From the NCBI RefSeq assembly GCF_014647115.1, contig NZ_BMOO01000004.1, forward strand, positions 248,001 to 312,000: a DNA stretch of 64,000 nucleotides, given 5' to 3'. This document shows positions 23,020 through 31,893 of the stretch, piece after piece. The DNA comes from Halarchaeum rubridurum. Lineage in GTDB: Archaea; Halobacteriota; Halobacteria; Halobacteriales; Halobacteriaceae. Positions within the stretch are counted from its first letter, which is position 1, and each line of letters opens with the position of its first letter. The notes under the pieces are model-generated. The model ran no database searches. It saw only the letters and a list, made by a program, of their open reading frames with translations, and was not told the DNA's origin. Position numbers and translations under genes: made by a program.

Positions 23020-25278
23020 TCAGGCGGGCTGGCCGCGCGAGGCGCGGTAGTCGGCGACGCGCTCCGCGACGCCGTCGAGGAGGACGAGCGTCGGCGGGAG
23101 GGTGGCGAGCGAGGCGATGAGCGTGAGGAAGATGACGCCGACGGTGAGGAAGCCGAAGCCGCTGAGGATGGGGAACGGCGAGAGGATCAGCGCGGAGAAA
23201 CCGAAGACGGTCGTCATCCCCGAGACGCTGATGGCCTTCCCGACGCGCGCGGAGGCGATCTGCACGGCGTCGAGTCTGCTCACGCCCTCGCGGGCCTTCT
23301 CCTCGTAGTAGCGCTCCATCACGATGATGGTGTACTCGGCACCGATACCGACGGTCATCGCGCCGAGGCTCGCGCCGAGCGGCGACACCGAGATTCCGAG
23401 CTCGTACATGTAGATGTTCTGCCAGCCGAGGACGAACACCATCGGCACGAGCGGCGCGACGGCCTTCACGGGGTCGCGGTAGTACGCCAGCAACAACAGG
23501 AGGACGAACAGCACGCCCAGCGCCGTCGTGACGTTCCGCGAGTTGATCTGCGAGACGATGGAGGGCGTGGATATCGCGGCCGTCCCCGTCACCTCGGCGG
23601 TGACGCCGGGCGGCGGGTTGCTGTACGCGATGGCGTCCTCGGCGTTCCCGAGGAAGGAGATGACCTGCCCGGTGGTCATGTCCTGTGCGGTCGCTATCGT
23701 CACGTGCGCGCGCCCGTCATTATAGTATTGTTCGAGCGTCTTCTCGGGGACGTCGGCGAGGACGCGGTTCACCCCGGCTTCGGTCTCGGGAATCTCGCCG
23801 CCGTTGTACTGCTTCACGAGCGTGGCGGGCGAGTCGACGCCCGTGATGAGCGGGGCCTCGGTCGCCACGTCCTCGAACTGCACCATCCAGCGCAACACTT
23901 CGGGGTCGCGCAGGTCCGTCCCGGTGACGAGCACGCTGTAGCTCGTGCTCGACCCGCCGCCGGTGACGGACTGGAACTGCTGGAGGTCGACGTACGCGGG
24001 GAGGTCCTGCGGGATGAACTCGTTCGTGTCCGTCATCGTGTCGAGCGACGAGCTCACCTGGAAGCCGGCCCCGGCGAGCACGAGCGCGAGCACGAGCACG
24101 GTCTTCGGGTGGCTGGCGAACACCCGCGAGGAGCGCCCGAGGAGCAGACCGACGGTGCCGACGCTGGCGAGGCGGTCCTCGGTGCTCTCCGCGTCGTCCC
24201 CGTCCCCGTCCGCGTCCGCCTCGTGGTCGAACTCGCCATCGAAACGCCAGCGGACGTAGATGGTGAGCACGGAGAGGAGGACGAGGATGCCCGCGGCGTA
24301 CGTGAGCATGACGCCGAGGATGGACGTCTGGGCGAACCAGATGGTCGCGGGCGACGTCGTGGACACCCACGTCGCGGCGAAGCCGAGCGCGGCCGCGAGC
24401 ATGGCGATGAGCACCGGCGGCCCGATGCCCCCGAGGGCGATGGGGAGCGCGGTCCGCGGGGGATTGCGCTCCAGTTCCTCCTCGTAGCGCTCGTGGAACT
24501 GCACGGAGTAGTCGATACCGAGCCCGATGAGGATGGGGAACACCGCGCTCGTCAGCGTCGAGTTCGGGATGCCGGCGTAGCCGATGGCACCGAACGTGTA
24601 GATGACGCCGACGAAGACGGCGACGATGGGGAGGAGGCGCAACCGGACGCCGCGGAAGAGGAAGAACAGCGCCACGACCATCAACCCGACCGCGAGGCCG
24701 AGCAGTTGGGAGGTGCTCTGTTGGATGACCGCGGACATCTGCGCGCTGAACGCGGCGCTCCCGGTGACGGTCACGGAGACGCCGGCGGGGAAGTTCGCCC
24801 ACTGTTTGACGTCGACGGCGCGGTCGTATATCGGCCGCTCTTCTTGCTGGGAGAGCCCGGTGTCGGTGGTGACGCCGACGATGGCGTAGTCGGGTGAGCC
24901 GAGCACGGCCTCTATCTTCCGCTCGGAGTCGGGTATCCGTCCGTACTCGGCTCTGACGCGGTCGGCCGGGCTCGTGACGCTGTAGACGTTCTGCGTCTCG
25001 CTCATCCGCCGGTCGAGTCGGTCGATGGCGCGAATCGTCGCGGGTTCGGTGACGTCACCGCGGACGAGGACGGCGACGTTCCCGTGGTCGAAGGACTCCG
25101 AGTAGGCCTCGTACGTCGGGTTCTCGGCGACGAACGCCGCGTTCCCGGTGACGCTCGTTATCTGTGCCGCGCCGCCGACGGACACGAGTATCAGGAGGAC
25201 GGCGAGCGCGAGCGTCGCCACCGGTCGTTCCTGGACGCGGTCGCCGACGGACGCGAAGACGCCCCGAAGCTTAGCCAT
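23020..25278 (-). CDS. RND/MMPL-family exporter
   Basis: 752 residues with the duplicated RND layout: a helix, a large external loop and a block of five helices, repeated once (about 12 helices). Characteristic segments are GIDYSVQFHERYEEE and GIGAEYTIIVMERYYEE, the paired helix-4 motifs of hydrophobe/lipid exporters related to MmpL. It probably moves lipids, isoprenoids or amphiphilic compounds across the membrane using the ion gradient. It is the second gene of a two-gene unit; the COG1361 protein upstream ends 27 bases before this start. The pair COG1361 plus RND/MMPL recurs in archaea. The substrate is unknown. Confidence 0.9.
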   Translation of the reverse strand: MAKLRGVFASVGDRVQERPVATLALAVLLILVSVGGAAQITSVTGNAAFVAENPTYEAYSESFDHGNVAVLVRGDVTEPATIRAIDRLDRRMSETQNVYSVTSPADRVRAEYGRIPDSERKIEAVLGSPDYAIVGVTTDTGLSQQEERPIYDRAVDVKQWANFPAGVSVTVTGSAAFSAQMSAVIQQSTSQLLGLAVGLMVVALFFLFRGVRLRLLPIVAVFVGVIYTFGAIGYAGIPNSTLTSAVFPILIGLGIDYSVQFHERYEEELERNPPRTALPIALGGIGPPVLIAMLAAALGFAATWVSTTSPATIWFAQTSILGVMLTYAAGILVLLSVLTIYVRWRFDGEFDHEADADGDGDDAESTEDRLASVGTVGLLLGRSSRVFASHPKTVLVLALVLAGAGFQVSSSLDTMTDTNEFIPQDLPAYVDLQQFQSVTGGGSSTSYSVLVTGTDLRDPEVLRWMVQFEDVATEAPLITGVDSPATLVKQYNGGEIPETEAGVNRVLADVPEKTLEQYYNDGRAHVTIATAQDMTTGQVISFLGNAEDAIAYSNPPPGVTAEVTGTAAISTPSIVSQINSRNVTTALGVLFVLLLLLAYYRDPVKAVAPLVPMVFVLGWQNIYMYELGISVSPLGASLGAMTVGIGAEYTIIVMERYYEEKAREGVSRLDAVQIASARVGKAISVSGMTTVFGFSALILSPFPILSGFGFLTVGVIFLTLIASLATLPPTLVLLDGVAERVADYRASRGQPA

Positions 25279-25305: not shown

Positions 25306-26925
25306 TCATCGGCGACGGTAGAGGACGTAGGCCCCACCCGCGACGACGAGCACGACGACGACGATGACCGGGAGCGGAACGGGGAGCCCGCCGCTCGACG
25401 GCGTGACGGGGACGCCGATGGGGAGGCCGTCGGTGTACTTCGTGTCGCCGTCCGCGTCGTCGTAGCGCACCTCAACGGAGGCGGCGTACTCCTTGGTGAG
25501 CGCACCCGAGCCGGCGCTGACGGTGAACGTCGCGTTCTTCGTCTCGCCGGACGTCATCGTCCCGAGGTACGCGCCGTCGTCGGACGTCGAAATCGGGTCG
25601 CTGACGAACAGTTTCGCGTTCGTCGCCGACACCGGCTCGTCGCCGTTGTACTGGACGCGGACCGTCACCGAGTCGCTCCCGCCGGGCGAGACGCCCGTCG
25701 AGACGTTCGTGACGGTGAAGGGGTCGCGCTCGGCGCCGATGGTGATGGACTTGCGAAGCGGCGCGTCGGTCTCGCGCACGTCACCGTCCGCGTTCTCGTA
25801 CTGCACGCTGAACGGGAAGGTGTTCGTGCCGGGTTCGGCGCTCGCGGGAATCGTCACGGTGAACGAGACGGGCGCGGACTCACCGACGGCGAGGTCACCG
25901 ACGGCGGATTCGCCGTTCGTCGGCGTCACGGTCGCCGTCTGCCCCAGCACGACCGCGACGTTTTGCGCGTCGCCGGGACCGGTGTTGACGACCGTCGCGT
26001 TGATTCGGGCCTCGTTCTCGTCGACGCGGAAGTTCTCCGTCGAGACGTCACGCAGCTCGAAGGAGCGTTCGGGGCGCACCTGCACGCCGGTCGTCAGCGT
26101 GTCGGAGCGTTCGGTGACGCCGTTCTGGTTCTCGTAGGAGACGACCGCGTTCACGGGGTACTCGCCCGCGGCGGTCTCGGGACCGGCACCGACCTGCGCG
26201 GAGACGGTCGTGCGCTCGCCGGGTTCGAGGCTTGGGACGTAGAGCCCCGTCTCGGCCTGCGCGTTCGACGGCGAGCCGAAGTAGAGCGCGCCGGACTGCG
26301 TCGAGAGGTGGACGGACGCCGCGTGGGCGGTCCGCGTGCCCGTATTCTCCAGCGTGAAGGAGAGGTTGCCGGTGTCGCCGGCGAAGACGGCGTTCTCCCC
26401 CTCGGAGACGACGTCGAACTGCGGGCGGTCCTCGACGGTTATCGTGACGTACTTGCGCTCGTCGATGGTGCTCCACGTGTACTCGGGTTGTTCGGTGTCG
26501 CTGTAGACGACCGCACGCACGTGACGGTACTGGACGCGGACGGGGATGCGGTACGTCCCGGGGGCCGCGTTCCCGATCTCGACGTCGAAGTCGAACGTCG
26601 CCGTGCTCGACCCGGGGATCGACCCCCGCACGACCGTGCCCGTCTTCACGTCGATGGGCGCGTCGATCTGGTCTTCGAGTACCGTCATCCGGACGTTCTG
26701 TGCGGTCTTTATCTTCTCCTCGTACTGGGCGGGGCCGCCCTGGTCTATGTCGCCGTCGTTCGACGCCACCACCGACAGTGTGGCGGCCTCGCTCGCGTGG
26801 AAGGTGTTGTCCGATACGGAGACCGAGACCTCCGGATTCCCGTAGACAGAGCTATCCGCCAAGACTGGTGTGGCCGGCACGACGAGTGCCAGCGCGAGGA
26901 CGAGTAAAACGATTTCGCGGCGCAT
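25306..26925 (-). CDS. COG1361-type exoplasmic protein partnered with RND/MMPL exporter
   Basis: 539 residues: signal peptide (1-23), about four Ig-like NEW/CARDB repeats, and a C-terminal helix (GLPVPLPVIVVVVLVVAGG) with a short YRRR tail, giving an outside-facing protein on one membrane anchor. The N-terminal domain is homologous to that of the protein at 7836-9521, which accompanies an MFS exporter instead. Cotranscribed with the RND exporter 27 bases downstream. A T-rich TATA element (TTTTTATC, 26951-26958 on the minus strand) lies about 30 bases before the ATG, fitting leaderless transcription. A role as an external partner or substrate receptor of the exporter is inference. Confidence 0.85.
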   Translation of the reverse strand: MRREIVLLVLALALVVPATPVLADSSVYGNPEVSVSVSDNTFHASEAATLSVVASNDGDIDQGGPAQYEEKIKTAQNVRMTVLEDQIDAPIDVKTGTVVRGSIPGSSTATFDFDVEIGNAAPGTYRIPVRVQYRHVRAVVYSDTEQPEYTWSTIDERKYVTITVEDRPQFDVVSEGENAVFAGDTGNLSFTLENTGTRTAHAASVHLSTQSGALYFGSPSNAQAETGLYVPSLEPGERTTVSAQVGAGPETAAGEYPVNAVVSYENQNGVTERSDTLTTGVQVRPERSFELRDVSTENFRVDENEARINATVVNTGPGDAQNVAVVLGQTATVTPTNGESAVGDLAVGESAPVSFTVTIPASAEPGTNTFPFSVQYENADGDVRETDAPLRKSITIGAERDPFTVTNVSTGVSPGGSDSVTVRVQYNGDEPVSATNAKLFVSDPISTSDDGAYLGTMTSGETKNATFTVSAGSGALTKEYAASVEVRYDDADGDTKYTDGLPIGVPVTPSSGGLPVPLPVIVVVVLVVAGGAYVLYRRR

Positions 26926-27068: not shown

Positions 27069-28271
27069 TTAGCGGCGGAGTCGCGTGCCGGCGATGCCGC
27101 CGACGACGACGCCGCCGAAGAGCAGCGCGATGCTGCCGAGCGAGATGCCACCGACGCCGCCGCTCAGGAAGGCGTTCTGCCCGGTGGCGTTCGTGACGTC
27201 GCTGTCAGTCGACTCCAAACCGGTCGCTCCGATGGTCTCGGTGGTGCTGCTGGTGTCGCCACCGACCGTGTAGGAGACGTCGAGCGTCGCGCTCGCCGGT
27301 GCGGAGCCGACGGGGACGGTGAGCGTCTCCGAGGCGGAGGCGTTGACGCGCTCGACGGACGCGCTCGGGAGCGAGCCGTCCGGCGAGTCGGCCGTCACGA
27401 GGACGTCCTCGATGGGCGCGTTACCCGCGTTGGCGACGTGGTACTGCAGTAGCGTCGTGTCGTTCTCGCGGACGGTCGTCGCGTCGACGCGCACGTCGTC
27501 TTCGAGCGCGTCGACGGTGGTGGACGTCAGCCCGGTGACGCTCTCGTCCTCGGCGGTGAGCGTCGCCTTCAGGTTGACGTCACCGGCCTCGTCGGGGGTG
27601 ACGGTGAACGTGAACGTCGTCATGTTCTCCGCGGGGATGGTGGGACGCATTCGGGTCTGCGCGTCGATGGTGTCACCGAAGTCGTCGAGGCGGAGGGTGA
27701 CGTCGGAGAGGGTGTCCTCGCCGCCGTTCGAGACCGTCACGGTGACCGTCGATTCGGCACCGGCGACCATCGAGTCGGCGTCGATGTGGACGCGGGGCGC
27801 GGGTTCGGGGTCGCTCGACGACGGCGCGTCGACGTCGATGTAGACCGGGTACGAGACCTTCGAGACGGTCTGCGTGTGGCCGGTCGAGTTCACCGTGATG
27901 CCGCGGACGTGGAGCGTCAGGTGCTTGTCGCCCGCGGAGTCGAAGGACGCCCGTAGCGGGACGTCCAGCGTCTCCGAGCCACCAATCGTCCCGAGGTCGT
28001 CCGCCTCGGCGATGCGTTCACCGTTCGAGTCCGTCAGCGTTACCTCGTTGATGTGGAACCCGTAGTCGCCCGAGTCGGAGTGCCGAATCGTCGGCGTGAT
28101 CGTCACCAGATCGCCCGTCGTCGGGTTGTCGTCGGAGACCGCGACGTCCGAGACCGTCACGTACGTCACGCCGCTCGCCGCGCCGGCACCGGCGAGCAGC
28201 GAGCAACAGAGCAAGAGGGTGACCGTCGTGACGAGTAGCCGACCGAGTCGGGATCGCTTCGTTCGTGGCAT
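27069..28271 (-). CDS. CARDB-like surface protein, membrane anchored (paralogue A)
   Basis: 400 residues: signal peptide (1-32), an N-terminal domain beginning GVTYVTVSDVAVSDDNPTTG, two further CARDB/NEW-type beta-sandwich repeats (VSNGGEDTLSDVTL; HVANAGNAPIEDVL), and a C-terminal helix (SLGSIALLFGGVVVGGIAG) with TRLRR tail. It is a tandem paralogue of the protein at 28456-29646, very similar over the whole length. Its promoter is leaderless (TTATAT 27 bases before the ATG), and a perfect palindrome of the DtxR/IdeR metal-repressor type lies between TATA and ATG, so expression is probably metal-controlled. Function unknown; adhesion or metal-related surface scaffolding are both possible. Confidence 0.8.
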   Translation of the reverse strand: MPRTKRSRLGRLLVTTVTLLLCCSLLAGAGAASGVTYVTVSDVAVSDDNPTTGDLVTITPTIRHSDSGDYGFHINEVTLTDSNGERIAEADDLGTIGGSETLDVPLRASFDSAGDKHLTLHVRGITVNSTGHTQTVSKVSYPVYIDVDAPSSSDPEPAPRVHIDADSMVAGAESTVTVTVSNGGEDTLSDVTLRLDDFGDTIDAQTRMRPTIPAENMTTFTFTVTPDEAGDVNLKATLTAEDESVTGLTSTTVDALEDDVRVDATTVRENDTTLLQYHVANAGNAPIEDVLVTADSPDGSLPSASVERVNASASETLTVPVGSAPASATLDVSYTVGGDTSSTTETIGATGLESTDSDVTNATGQNAFLSGGVGGISLGSIALLFGGVVVGGIAGTRLRR

Positions 28272-28275
28272 ACAG

Positions 28276-28293
28276 TTTTAGGCTAGCCTAAAA
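28276..28293 (-). promoter_or_regulatory. DtxR/IdeR-type palindromic operator
   Basis: TTTTAGGCT-AGCCTAAAA, an unbroken 18-base palindrome ending four bases from the ATG at 28271 and lying between the TATA element (28296-28302) and the start codon. TTAGGCTAGCCTAA matches the core of iron/manganese repressor boxes of the DtxR family. Binding here would block the transcription start. Confidence 0.7.
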
Positions 28294-28308
28294 AGATATA
28301 AGCGCTTT

Positions 28309-28327
28309 GTTTTAGGTCGGCCAAAAC
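28309..28327 (-). promoter_or_regulatory. Second, imperfect metal-repressor-like site
   Basis: GTTTTAGGTCGGCCAAAAC: inverted half-sites GTTTTAGG and GCCAAAAC with one mismatch, upstream of the TATA element and centred about 33 bases from the centre of the perfect operator (roughly three helical turns, same face of the DNA). Confidence 0.45.
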
Positions 28328-28455
28328 AGCGGGTGGATAGACCTGTGGCTGGTCGGACCAAAAACGACACGGAACCGTTCGACCGGACGACCGACGAGCG
28401 GCGAAAAGGAGCGCGAAATCGACGTCCGGGGTCGCTCGGAAACGGGTTCGAGACG

Positions 28456-29646
28456 TTACTTGCGGAGGCGCGTGCCCGCGACGCCGCCGACGACGACGCC
28501 ACCGAAGAGCAGCGCGATGGCACCGAGCGAGACGCCGCCCATGCCGCCACCGAGGAAGGCCTCCTGCCCGGTGGAGCCGCTCGCGCTCAGCGTGTTCGTC
28601 TGCAGGCTCTCGCCGCTCACCGTGGTGGTGGCGCTGCTGGACTCGCCGGCGACCGTGTAGGAGACGTCAATCGTCGCCTCGGACGGCACGTTGCCGATGG
28701 GGACGGCGACCGTCTCGGAGGACGAGGCCGCGACGCGCTCGACGGACGCGCTCGGCAGCGAGACGTCCGGCGAGTCGGCCGTCACGAGGACGTCCTCGAT
28801 GGGTGCGTTACCCGCGTTGGCGACGTGGTACTGCAGCAGCGTCGTGTTGTCGTTCTCGACGACCGTCGCGTCGATGCGCACGTCGTCATCGACCGCCGAA
28901 ACCGGGACGGAGGACGTCGTGGACGTGCTCACGTCGGAGGAGGAGAGGGAGGCCGTGAGGTCCGCGCTCCCGGTCTCGCTCGGGGTGACGCTGAACGTGA
29001 ACGTCTGCATGCTCTCCGCGGAGATGGTGGGCTGCATCTGGGTCTTCGTGGCGATACCGTCACCCGAAAGCTGCAGCGTGACGTCGGAGAGGCTGTCCTC
29101 GCCGCCGTTCGAAACCGTCACGTCGACCGTGGAGTCGTCACCGGCGACCATCGGTGCGGCGTCGATGTGGACGCGCGGTTCGGGTTCGTCCGCAGCCGGG
29201 CCGTCGACGTCGATGTAGACCGGGTACGTGACCTCGGAGGCCAGTTGGTAGTCACCGCTGTTGTTCACGGTGACGCCGCGAACGTGAAGCGTCAGATGCT
29301 TGTCGCCCGCGGAGTCGAAGGACACCCGCAGCGGGACGTCCAGCGTCTCAGAGCCACCGATCGTCCCGAGGTCGTTGGCTTCCGCGATGCGCTCACCGTT
29401 CGAGTTCGTCAGCGTTACCTCGTTGATCTGGAAGCCGGCATCGCCAGCGCTGGAGTGTCGAATCGTCGGCGTGATCGTCACCAGGTCGCCCGTCGTCGGG
29501 TTGTCGTCGGAGACCGCGACATCCGAGACCGTCACGTACGTCACGCCGCTCGCCGCGCCGACACCGGCGAACATCGAACAAGCAACGGTCAATGCGAGGA
29601 CGGCAGCCATGAGGCCGCCGAATTGGGATCGCGTGATTAGTGGCAT
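28456..29646 (-). CDS. CARDB-like surface protein, membrane anchored (paralogue B)
   Basis: 396 residues with the same plan as paralogue A: signal peptide (1-31), the domain beginning GVTYVTVSDVAVSDDNPTTG, two CARDB-like repeats, and a C-terminal helix (SLGAIALLFGGVVVGGVAG) with TRLRK tail. The two genes are a tandem duplication with a 184-base spacer. The upstream region differs: in place of the DtxR-like palindrome there are three tandem hexamers TCATTA/TCATTA/TCATTG between the TATA element and the ATG, resembling a Fur-type box. The paralogues may therefore answer to different metals or regulators. Function unknown. Confidence 0.8.
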   Translation of the reverse strand: MPLITRSQFGGLMAAVLALTVACSMFAGVGAASGVTYVTVSDVAVSDDNPTTGDLVTITPTIRHSSAGDAGFQINEVTLTNSNGERIAEANDLGTIGGSETLDVPLRVSFDSAGDKHLTLHVRGVTVNNSGDYQLASEVTYPVYIDVDGPAADEPEPRVHIDAAPMVAGDDSTVDVTVSNGGEDSLSDVTLQLSGDGIATKTQMQPTISAESMQTFTFSVTPSETGSADLTASLSSSDVSTSTTSSVPVSAVDDDVRIDATVVENDNTTLLQYHVANAGNAPIEDVLVTADSPDVSLPSASVERVAASSSETVAVPIGNVPSEATIDVSYTVAGESSSATTTVSGESLQTNTLSASGSTGQEAFLGGGMGGVSLGAIALLFGGVVVGGVAGTRLRK

Positions 29647-29648
29647 AC

Positions 29649-29668
29649 AATCATTATCATTATCATTG
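29649..29668 (-). promoter_or_regulatory. Tandem hexamer box resembling a Fur-type site
   Basis: Read on the minus strand the element is CAATGATAATGATAATGATT, i.e. three head-to-tail GATAAT-like hexamers, starting three bases from the ATG. The Fur box of bacteria is commonly described as three or more such hexamers. A TATA-like CCTATTAC (29672-29679) lies just upstream, so the box overlaps the predicted transcription start. Confidence 0.55.
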
Positions 29669-29760
29669 TCCGTAATAGGTCCTCCGGTAGAGGTAAACTT
29701 GCCGCAACGTGCGCTCCGTTTACTACGGAGCCAGTCAGCGCTCGGCGTCGTGAGCGGCGG

Positions 29761-29937
29761 TCAGCGGAGGATAGCGGCGTAGGTCGCAGCGAAGACGATG
29801 ACCGTCGCCGCCGCGACGGTCCCGAGCGAGAACGAGACGTAGTCGAGGAGCGACGCACCGTAGACGGCTATCGCGGCGTAGATCGCCGACAGCACGGCCG
29901 CGAGCGGATACACGACACGAGGGTCCCCATCGACCAT
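29761..29937 (-). CDS. Small membrane protein, 58 residues
   Basis: ATG at 29937 to TGA at 29761. The product starts MVDGDPRVVYPLAAVLSAIY and has two hydrophobic helices separated by a short polar loop (GASLLDYVSF), ending TYAAILR. It fills the gap between the CARDB-like gene B and the divergent gene at 29992, with GC-rich third codon positions as in its neighbours. Small two-helix proteins of this kind are common in haloarchaea; I do not recognise the family. Confidence 0.6.
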   Translation of the reverse strand: MVDGDPRVVYPLAAVLSAIYAAIAVYGASLLDYVSFSLGTVAAATVIVFAATYAAILR

Positions 29938-29991: not shown

Positions 29992-30462
29992 ATGGCGGCC
30001 CCACGGGGTCGTGTGACCCTCGAACCCATCCACCTCGCCGACGACCGCGGTGTCGCCGGCCTCCCGGTCCGCCTCGTCGTCGCGTTCGTCGTCGGCACCG
30101 CCGTCCTCGGCGTGATGCTCAACATGGTCAGCGGCGTCGGCGCGCTCACGACGACGGAACTCGACGCCCACCCGACGCCGGACGTCGTCCATCCCGGGAA
30201 CGGAACCATCACCGTCGCGGCGGTCGACCCGGACGGCCACGCCCTCCCGGACGTCACGGTCGTTCTGAGCGCCGACACGGCCGGGCTCGCCGGCGGGCGG
30301 CCGGTCGTCGCGCGCACGAACGCGAGTGGCGTGGCGACCCTGCACGCGACGCCGACGCTCCCGCCGACGGCCGACCAAGGAACGCTGACGCTCACGGTCA
30401 AACCCCCGAGCGGGAAGTACGCCGACCGGCGCGCGAACACGGACGTCCTCGTCGTCCGCTAG
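29992..30462 (+). CDS. Membrane-anchored protein with carboxypeptidase-regulatory-like (Ig) domain; pilin-like N-terminus
   Basis: 156 residues. A short charged N-terminus (LADDRGVAGLPVRLVV) leads into one hydrophobic segment (about 26-46, VAFVVGTAVLGVMLNMV), and then a beta-sandwich domain with the ITVAAVDPDGHALPDVTVVL and TNASGVATLHATPT pattern typical of carboxypeptidase-regulatory/Big-like domains. The charged stretch with GLP before a hydrophobic helix resembles type IV pilin-like signals, but the cleavage motif is not canonical. Its 3' end overlaps the convergent methyltransferase-like gene by four bases. Function unknown. Confidence 0.7.
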   Translation: MAAPRGRVTLEPIHLADDRGVAGLPVRLVVAFVVGTAVLGVMLNMVSGVGALTTTELDAHPTPDVVHPGNGTITVAAVDPDGHALPDVTVVLSADTAGLAGGRPVVARTNASGVATLHATPTLPPTADQGTLTLTVKPPSGKYADRRANTDVLVVR

Positions 30463-31190
30463 TCCCAGTCGATCCAGTCGAGTTCCCATCCGCGGCGGCG
30501 TTCGGCGTGTTTCCGGGCGTGCTCCCGGTCCTCCCGGGCGGTCCGGTTTCGAGCCGGGACGCCGCCCTGTTCGCCCTCGACGAGCAGCGGGGCGAAGGCG
30601 ACCGGCTCACCCTCGCGGACCTCGTCGCCAGCGTCGAGGGTGGCGAGACGCTGTTCGCCCGCGCCGAGCGGCATCACGAGCCGGCCGTCCGAGGCGAGTT
30701 GCTCGCGGAGCGCCGCGGGGACGTCGAGCGCCGCGGCCTCGACGAGGATGCGGTCGAACGGCGCGTACGCCGGGAGGCCGCGGGCCCCGTCGCGGCGGTC
30801 GACGAGCACGCCCGGGTAGCCCGCGCGCCGGAGGTTGTCGCGGGCCGCCCACACGACGCGGCGCGCGATGTCGATGGCGTGGACGTGCTCCGCGCCGACG
30901 ATCTCCGCGAGCACCGCCGCGGTGTAACCGACGCCGGCGCCGACTATCAGAACGTCGTCGCCGGGGTCGGGCGCGAGCGCCTGCACGAGCGCCCCGGCGG
31001 TGCTGGGCGCGAGGACGCGCGTCCCGTACGCTTCGAACGACCGGTCGTTGTACGCGCGGTGGTCCGCGTCGACGAACTCGTGGCGAGGGACGGCGCGCAT
31101 CGCCGTCCCCACGGGGTCGGGGTCGACGACGCCCCGGAGTTCGTGTTCGAGGCTATCGACCATCCCGTCCCGCGCGACCGCGTACTCCAT
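30459..31190 (-). CDS. Divergent isoaspartyl-methyltransferase-like protein
   Basis: 243 residues from the ATG at 31190; upstream extension in the same frame is antisense-like and was not used. It has the SAM-binding Rossmann core (VLIVGAGVGYTAAVLAE) and the family lead-in AVPRHEFV, so it belongs to the protein-L-isoaspartate O-methyltransferase superfamily. The catalytic segment QTxSAPH of true enzymes is replaced by TRVLAPS, losing the active-site Ser. The C-terminus is extended by a very basic, charged tail (RTAREDREHARKHAERRR). It is 82 bases downstream of the canonical enzyme gene. Probably a paralogue with a different substrate. Confidence 0.8.
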   Translation of the reverse strand: MEYAVARDGMVDSLEHELRGVVDPDPVGTAMRAVPRHEFVDADHRAYNDRSFEAYGTRVLAPSTAGALVQALAPDPGDDVLIVGAGVGYTAAVLAEIVGAEHVHAIDIARRVVWAARDNLRRAGYPGVLVDRRDGARGLPAYAPFDRILVEAAALDVPAALREQLASDGRLVMPLGAGEQRLATLDAGDEVREGEPVAFAPLLVEGEQGGVPARNRTAREDREHARKHAERRRGWELDWIDWD

Positions 31191-31272
31191 GCCCCCCCGA
31201 TCGGTGCCGAGGCTCTTGAACGGTCCGACGCGTGCGCGCGTGTCCGCGGCCACCGCGTGCCAACGCGACCGA

Positions 31273-31893
31273 CTACTGCATCCGCACGAACCGGACGCGT
31301 TCGAGGTGTTCGCGCTCCGTCCCGTCCTCGCCGACGTCGACGCGGACGAGCTGTTGGGCGAGGTCGCCGACGGGTGCGAGGACGCGGCCGCCGGCGCGCG
31401 TCTGCCCGACGAGCGCCTCGGGCACGTCGGGCGCGGCACACGTGAGGTAGACGGCGTCGTAGGGCGCGTTCGCCGACCACCCCTCGCGGCCGTCGCCCTG
31501 CCGGACGTGCACGTCGCCGTAGCCAGCGGTGGCGAGGTTCTCGCGGGCGTCCGCGGCGAGGTCGGCGACGTACTCGGCGCTGTAGACGTTCGCGCTCCCG
31601 ACGAGTTCGGCGGTGACGGCGGCGTGGTAGCCACAGCCCGTCCCGATTTCGAGGACGGTCTCGCCCGGTTCAAGGGCGAGGTGGTCGGCCATCGCGGCGA
31701 CCATGTGCGGGGCGCTGACCGTCTGGTCGTGGCCGATGGGGAGCGGGCGGTCGGCGTACGCGTCGTCGCGGCGTGCCTCGGGGACGAACGCGTGTCGCGG
31801 AACCGCGCGAATCGCCTCGATAACGCGTCTCTCGAAGTCGTACTGCCTGGCGAGTCCGTCGGCGAGTCTATCGCGGGCCTCCTCGTACGCCAT
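31273..31893 (-). CDS. pcm: Protein-L-isoaspartate O-methyltransferase
   Basis: 206 residues; uses S-adenosylmethionine to methylate isoaspartyl residues in aged proteins and start their repair. Canonical motifs are present: AVPRHAFVP, active-site segment HDQTVSAPHMVAAM, SAM-binding ETVLEIGTGCGYHAA, and VYLTCAAPDVPEALV. Length is typical. It is followed by the divergent paralogue on the same strand, probably cotranscribed. Confidence 0.93.
   Translation of the reverse strand: MAYEEARDRLADGLARQYDFERRVIEAIRAVPRHAFVPEARRDDAYADRPLPIGHDQTVSAPHMVAAMADHLALEPGETVLEIGTGCGYHAAVTAELVGSANVYSAEYVADLAADARENLATAGYGDVHVRQGDGREGWSANAPYDAVYLTCAAPDVPEALVGQTRAGGRVLAPVGDLAQQLVRVDVGEDGTEREHLERVRFVRMQ

Follow-up and report, generated by a model that had tools for sequence, protein, structure and literature searches.

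The window analysed here, a 64,000-nucleotide stretch of Halarchaeum rubridurum DNA, carries two tandem paralogous genes, A and B, that are preceded by quite different promoter elements. The locus thus raises the question of whether the two copies came under separate control after duplication, and what part a repeat of GATAAT-type hexamers in front of B would play in it. A preliminary description had proposed a regulatory split between two near-identical proteins, with a DtxR-like palindrome before A, a Fur-type box before B and an exchange of one protein for the other by metal status. The genes and the elements of the B promoter are as follows.

23020 to 25278, minus strand: HAE3-family MMPL/RND transporter
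25306 to 26925, minus strand: 539-aa CARDB protein, downstream of A and B and adjoining the RND transporter
27069 to 28271, minus strand: paralogue A, 400 aa, CARDB/Ig-like, 69% identical to B
28456 to 29646, minus strand: paralogue B, 396 aa, CARDB/Ig-like, with an N-terminal hydrophobic helix and a hydrophobic C-terminus
29647 to 29670, minus strand: direct hexamer repeat GACAAT-GATAAT-GATAAT-GATTGT, between the TATA-like box and the ATG of B
29672 to 29677, minus strand: TATA-like TATTAC of B, at -31 to -26, its role assigned from its position
29716 to 29742, minus strand: 27-nt block upstream of B, identical in both species that have B
29761 to 29937, minus strand: small membrane-protein-like ORF of 58 codons, upstream of B and also present at the single-copy locus of a congener (G003)

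A shares the N-terminal hydrophobic helix and the hydrophobic C-terminus of B, and at 69% identity the term near-identical overstated the likeness. The AlphaFold model of B is of low confidence (mean pLDDT 58.3), and only a beta-rich impression was taken from it. A second pair of adjacent genes, at 30459-31893 of the window and presumably of the protein-L-isoaspartate methyltransferase type, also consists of apparent tandem paralogues, with weak mutual similarity seen in the homologous loci.

On the minus strand, 25 bases separate TATTAC from the B ATG at 29646, and all but the first of them belong to the hexamer repeat. Two hexamers are exact, one has a single mismatch and one has two; CAATGATAATGATAATGATT (29649-29668, minus strand) lies within the repeat, and the exact GATAATGATAAT spans 29653-29664. 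The head-to-tail arrangement between TATA and ATG had therefore been read correctly. At up to three mismatches, GATAATGATAATGAT has two overlapping occurrences in the window, while two occurrences were seen in 0 of 100 shuffles. A period-6 run of at least 13 was present in one of 227 sampled gene upstream regions (crude start calls), and that one is GC-rich. Four hexamers over 24 nt are odd for a neutral spacer. A mini-ORF over the repeat (MIMIMIVCH) was considered and rejected: the start-codon repeat is not the same in H. nitratireducens, and the TATA spacing suggests that it is not transcribed.

DtxR-type boxes of A and of iron genes elsewhere in the genome

The promoter of A contains three elements.

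28276 to 28293: proximal DtxR-type palindrome, TTTTAGGCTAGCCTAAAA, between TATA and ATG
28296 to 28301, minus strand: TATA-like TTATAT, its role assigned from its position
28310 to 28327: distal DtxR-type palindrome, with two mismatches to TTTTAGGN4CCTAAAA, upstream of TATA

The proximal palindrome occupies the place equivalent to that of the B repeat, as had been stated, and the distal one, beyond TATA, is an addition to the preliminary description. The palindrome of A overlaps the core promoter and, in a genome search, proved common to iron genes: TTTTAGGN4CCTAAAA was found at 20 genomic places with at most two mismatches, as compared to none for the reversed control. The neighbours of the box were read by ORF calls at 15 of the 20 places, and seven box-downstream proteins were scanned for families, yielding four Peripla_BP_2 proteins, one Ferritin, one DUF7551/DUF7552 protein and one without a family. 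The Peripla_BP_2 proteins probably bind siderophores here. Two boxes lie upstream of a gene with the Fe_dep_repress domain (DtxR family). A set of palindromes before iron genes is typical of a DtxR-type iron regulon, of which A would be a member. The box of the ferritin-family gene lies at its start (L079:1501-1518), and a DtxR-type box of the same kind may thus act not only in iron uptake but also in storage.

Ancestral promoter layout and divergence of B

Homologues with at least 38% identity to B were collected from 26 genomes of the family and 293 of the order, giving 16 upstream regions together with the two genes of the window, and a box was accepted at no more than one mismatch to TTAGGN4CCTAA. 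Dual boxes at about -55 and -21 were present in 11 of the 14 non-B regions and in neither of the two B regions; among shuffled upstream regions, 7 of 3200 contained any such box. The dual-box set comprises A of the window genome (G000), A of H. nitratireducens (G005), G003, G007, G014, G160, G032, G164, G097, G277 and G168. G004 has a single box, and at this threshold none was found in G012, in G023 (start uncertain) or in the B genes. Given the box-free G012 and G023, which lie outside Halarchaeum, and the single box of G004, box loss is not unique to B.

In the congener G003, only one copy stands at this locus, adjoined by the small ORF and DUF7382, and it has the dual boxes. By percent identity, the outgroup homologue is nearer to A than to B in 10 of 11 loci. 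With dual boxes in the outgroups and in G003, and with A nearer to the outgroups, A is the conservative copy and B the derived one. The sequence comparison clearly indicates that the dual DtxR boxes are ancestral and that B lost them. The proposed regulatory split after duplication is thus borne out, in that A keeps the ancestral dual boxes and B is without both.

The core promoters of A and B in the window genome agree at 14 of 56 positions, which is not above shuffles (P 0.62), and those of H. nitratireducens at 22 of 56, a borderline value (P 0.02) that rises to P 0.12 without the last four bases. Capture of the B promoter from elsewhere was rejected as an origin: in the 26 family genomes, only the two B loci match well, and the promoter was found in these two species only. 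Patchy gene conversion was observed between the tandem A and B (27069-29646 of the window), at different places in the two species. In H. nitratireducens, the first 60 bases of A and B are 97% identical, as compared to only 57% between the B genes of the two species, and the pattern of coding similarity varies beyond these bases; A and B have exchanged coding sequence. The A/B similarity in H. nitratireducens extends to the CTGT just before the ATG; a conversion tract that ran over the last hexamer may have erased it there.

We consider it reasonably likely that B escaped iron repression after the duplication, while A remained part of the regulon. The gene duplicated in tandem to give A and B would have encoded a secreted, membrane-anchored Ig-like (CARDB) protein and belonged to a haloarchaeal DtxR-type iron regulon. 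Its ancestral promoter would have carried one palindrome upstream of TATA and one between TATA and the start; when iron is plentiful, a DtxR-family repressor loaded with metal would bind there and block TBP/TFB or the polymerase. A, with its dual-palindrome layout, is predicted from its sites to be on in iron starvation. In B the TATA position and the leaderless-type spacing were retained while both operators were lost, and an AT-rich GATAAT repeat now stands where its proximal box was. Because it lacks both operators, B would be made regardless of iron, and the cell would have a constitutive and an iron-starvation-inducible version of the protein. The identity of the repressor, the transcription start and the expression of A and B are predictions from sequence. 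As to the exchange of the two proteins by metal status, the half that concerns A, switched on when iron is low, can be inferred, whereas the control of B is unproven. The GATAAT stretch is most simply an AT-rich TATA-to-start spacer and, less likely, the site of another regulator.

Conservation and possible readers of the hexamer repeat

From -94 to -1, the two B promoters share 80 of 94 positions (85%), and given this identity between species something in the B promoter may be constrained. TATTAC is the same in both. The stretch after TATTAC is identical at 20 of 25 positions, as compared to 80 of 94 overall, and in these two B loci, which are all that are known, the repeat is not better conserved than the surrounding sequence. 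The B promoter of H. nitratireducens keeps only the central GATAATGATAAT, that is, two hexamers at the same spacing, and lacks the third. A shared run of at least 12 is expected from the overall identity (P 0.97 with the columns shuffled), and the presence of GATAATGATAAT in both promoters therefore does not point to special constraint; the longest run common to the two lies further upstream than the hexamers. The hexamer repeat was found at no other B-like promoter save that of H. nitratireducens, in this reduced form. The 27-nt block contains the inverted repeat CCGT-AGTAA-ACGG, and as a genome-wide motif the CCGTAGTAAACGG block (13-base core) was rejected, since in the four genomes of the genus that were searched its only exact occurrences precede the two B genes.

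It is possible, if rather unlikely, that the repeat is an operator for a dedicated non-Fur haloarchaeal regulator, for example a DtxR paralogue or a winged-helix protein, and that B has its own switch. The repeat sits exactly at the place of A's proximal DtxR operator, with GATAATGATAAT equally spaced in both species, and the genome has 11 matches to the Fe_dep_repress domain, seven of them over the cut-off, so that paralogues with other specificities may exist. The 12-mer also precedes SLC13-type permease genes (four genomes) and recurs in a conserved intergenic region (20 listed places); however, its other occurrences precede unrelated genes and differ outside the 12-mer. Against such an operator also stand the single genomic occurrence of the 19-mer, a repeat no more conserved than its flank, and the mild excess of the 12-mer with two mismatches over the control (25 versus 12 in the window genome, 26 versus 18 in H. 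nitratireducens).

A GATAAT regulon in these two genomes was rejected, as the excess is weak and many matches are coding. Across the order, the 12-mer was found before an ATG in 38 of 293 genomes, as compared to one control match, and a regulon was rejected here as well, since these are mostly repeated sightings of a few unrelated regions. Among the 41 matches listed, 20 are of one conserved intergenic kind, four are SLC13-type permease promoters, three are identical copies in one genome, and some fall in coding sequence.

The intergenic element, with TAATGATTGATAATGATAATATT, occurs at its 20 listed places in genomes of one family (L129-L132, L134-L136, L139-L151, around position 1500). Where its neighbours were read (6 of 20), a small ORF and an isocitrate-lyase-family gene lie on one side and, in several cases, an AIR-synthase-type (ThiL-like) gene on the other; one protein of each of these two families was checked. 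In four genomes of another family (L152-L155), an SLC13/Na_sulph_symp-type permease gene has GATAATGATAAT between its ATG and a TATA-like box; one of the permease proteins was checked.

It seems improbable that iron still regulates both A and B, the latter by way of a weak or relic DtxR site. The B promoter of H. nitratireducens has TCAGGTTTACCTAT, a DtxR-type box with two mismatches at -56, where A's distal box sits; such a match, noticed post hoc, has a chance of about 0.0017 at that place and of 0.045 anywhere in 150 bases. Although found after the fact, this relic suggests decay of the ancestral operators, and B of H. nitratireducens may still be iron-responsive. In the window genome, by contrast, the best DtxR-type site of B has four mismatches, as compared to two in H. 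nitratireducens, and with five mismatches at -56 the relic is not kept. Given that B lies upstream of A, with both on the minus strand, transcripts of A cannot read into B.

Quite improbable, in our estimation, is a more elaborate scheme in which, once the tandem copies had arisen within Halarchaeum, B's proximal DtxR operator was replaced in place by the direct-repeat operator of an uncharacterised haloarchaeal regulator, acting also at the SLC13-type permease and isocitrate-lyase-region promoters elsewhere in the order. One surface protein would then respond to iron and the other to carbon supply, and the likeness of the two would be maintained by gene conversion.

The resemblance to a Fur box is considerable on the sequence level. 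The repeat matches the 19-bp Fur consensus, which is bacterial while the host is archaeal, at 16 of 19 positions; it is the sole match with at most three mismatches in the window, and 0 of 100 window shuffles had one. E. coli Fur binds arrays of at least three GATAAT hexamers (PMC7536154). However, the inverted third half is missing. Positions 17 and 19 are among those that deviate here, and altering both together made the E. coli consensus bind Fur less strongly (PMC7536154). The third hexamer is also absent from the B promoter of H. nitratireducens. In the 2.81-Mb genome, the 19-mer AATGATAATGATAATGATT occurs once at up to three mismatches, as does the reversed-pattern control, and the iron genes carry the DtxR-type box instead.

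No convincing Fur gene was found in the genome, which is 99.88% complete. The sole PF01475 match (23.2 bits against a cut-off of 23.1) was rejected as Fur: only the N-terminal part of the model is covered, and the protein scores better as HTH_20 and as an ArsR-type and IclR-type winged helix. The check for a Fur-family gene that the preliminary description had called for thus returned a generic winged helix. Of 79 genomes of the order, 27 have a Fur match with an E-value of at most 0.001 and 15 have one past the cut-off; scores above 40 bits were confined to three of the 79, all of one small-genome family and none in the host's family, with the rest at 27.9 bits or less. A ZnuA-type zinc/manganese uptake gene for promoter comparison was not found in the two genomes, and such a gene was dropped as a source of the second metal box. 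That the repeat is a true Fur box, bound by a protein of the Fur family, is largely refuted by the missing gene and extremely unlikely. Overall, the preliminary description holds for the sequence and for the split after duplication, finds no support as regards Fur, and overstated the likeness of the proteins.

Relation to known systems

The locus offers a small, clean archaeal example of promoters that diverged once a gene had been duplicated. Outgroups fix the ancestral state, and the coding parts were homogenised in stretches by gene conversion. The comparison suggests that A belongs to the haloarchaeal iron regulon as a gene with two boxes, and its twin B is predicted to be independent of iron. 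A further lesson is that a sequence resembling the bacterial Fur box is no ground, in a haloarchaeon, for assuming control by Fur. A literature search on iron and promoters in Halarchaeum found nothing.

A DtxR-family iron regulon (Idr1/Idr2, SirR, TroR) has reportedly been described in haloarchaea. A and most of its homologues resemble its members in carrying, like the siderophore-binding-protein and ferritin genes, palindromic TTAGGN4CCTAA boxes, which in A and most homologues lie around the TATA box. Unlike those members, B has left the set.

The repeat of B shares its head-to-tail GATAAT hexamers and its consensus matches with the bacterial Fur box, as described in PMC7536154, and differs from it in the absent inverted half, the archaeal promoter position and the lack of a Fur protein among the genes found.

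No protein of Haloferax volcanii rises more on iron starvation than an RND permease that is encoded together with an Ig-fold partner; the permease increases 44-fold (PMC11349517). This pair, HVO_A0466/HVO_A0467, sets a secreted, membrane-anchored Ig-fold protein beside a strongly induced permease. Unlike it, A and B are tandemly duplicated separate genes with their own promoters, and are shorter than the 539-aa protein; it is this 539-aa CARDB protein with its RND transporter that recalls the Haloferax pair, as a resemblance rather than a test of homology.
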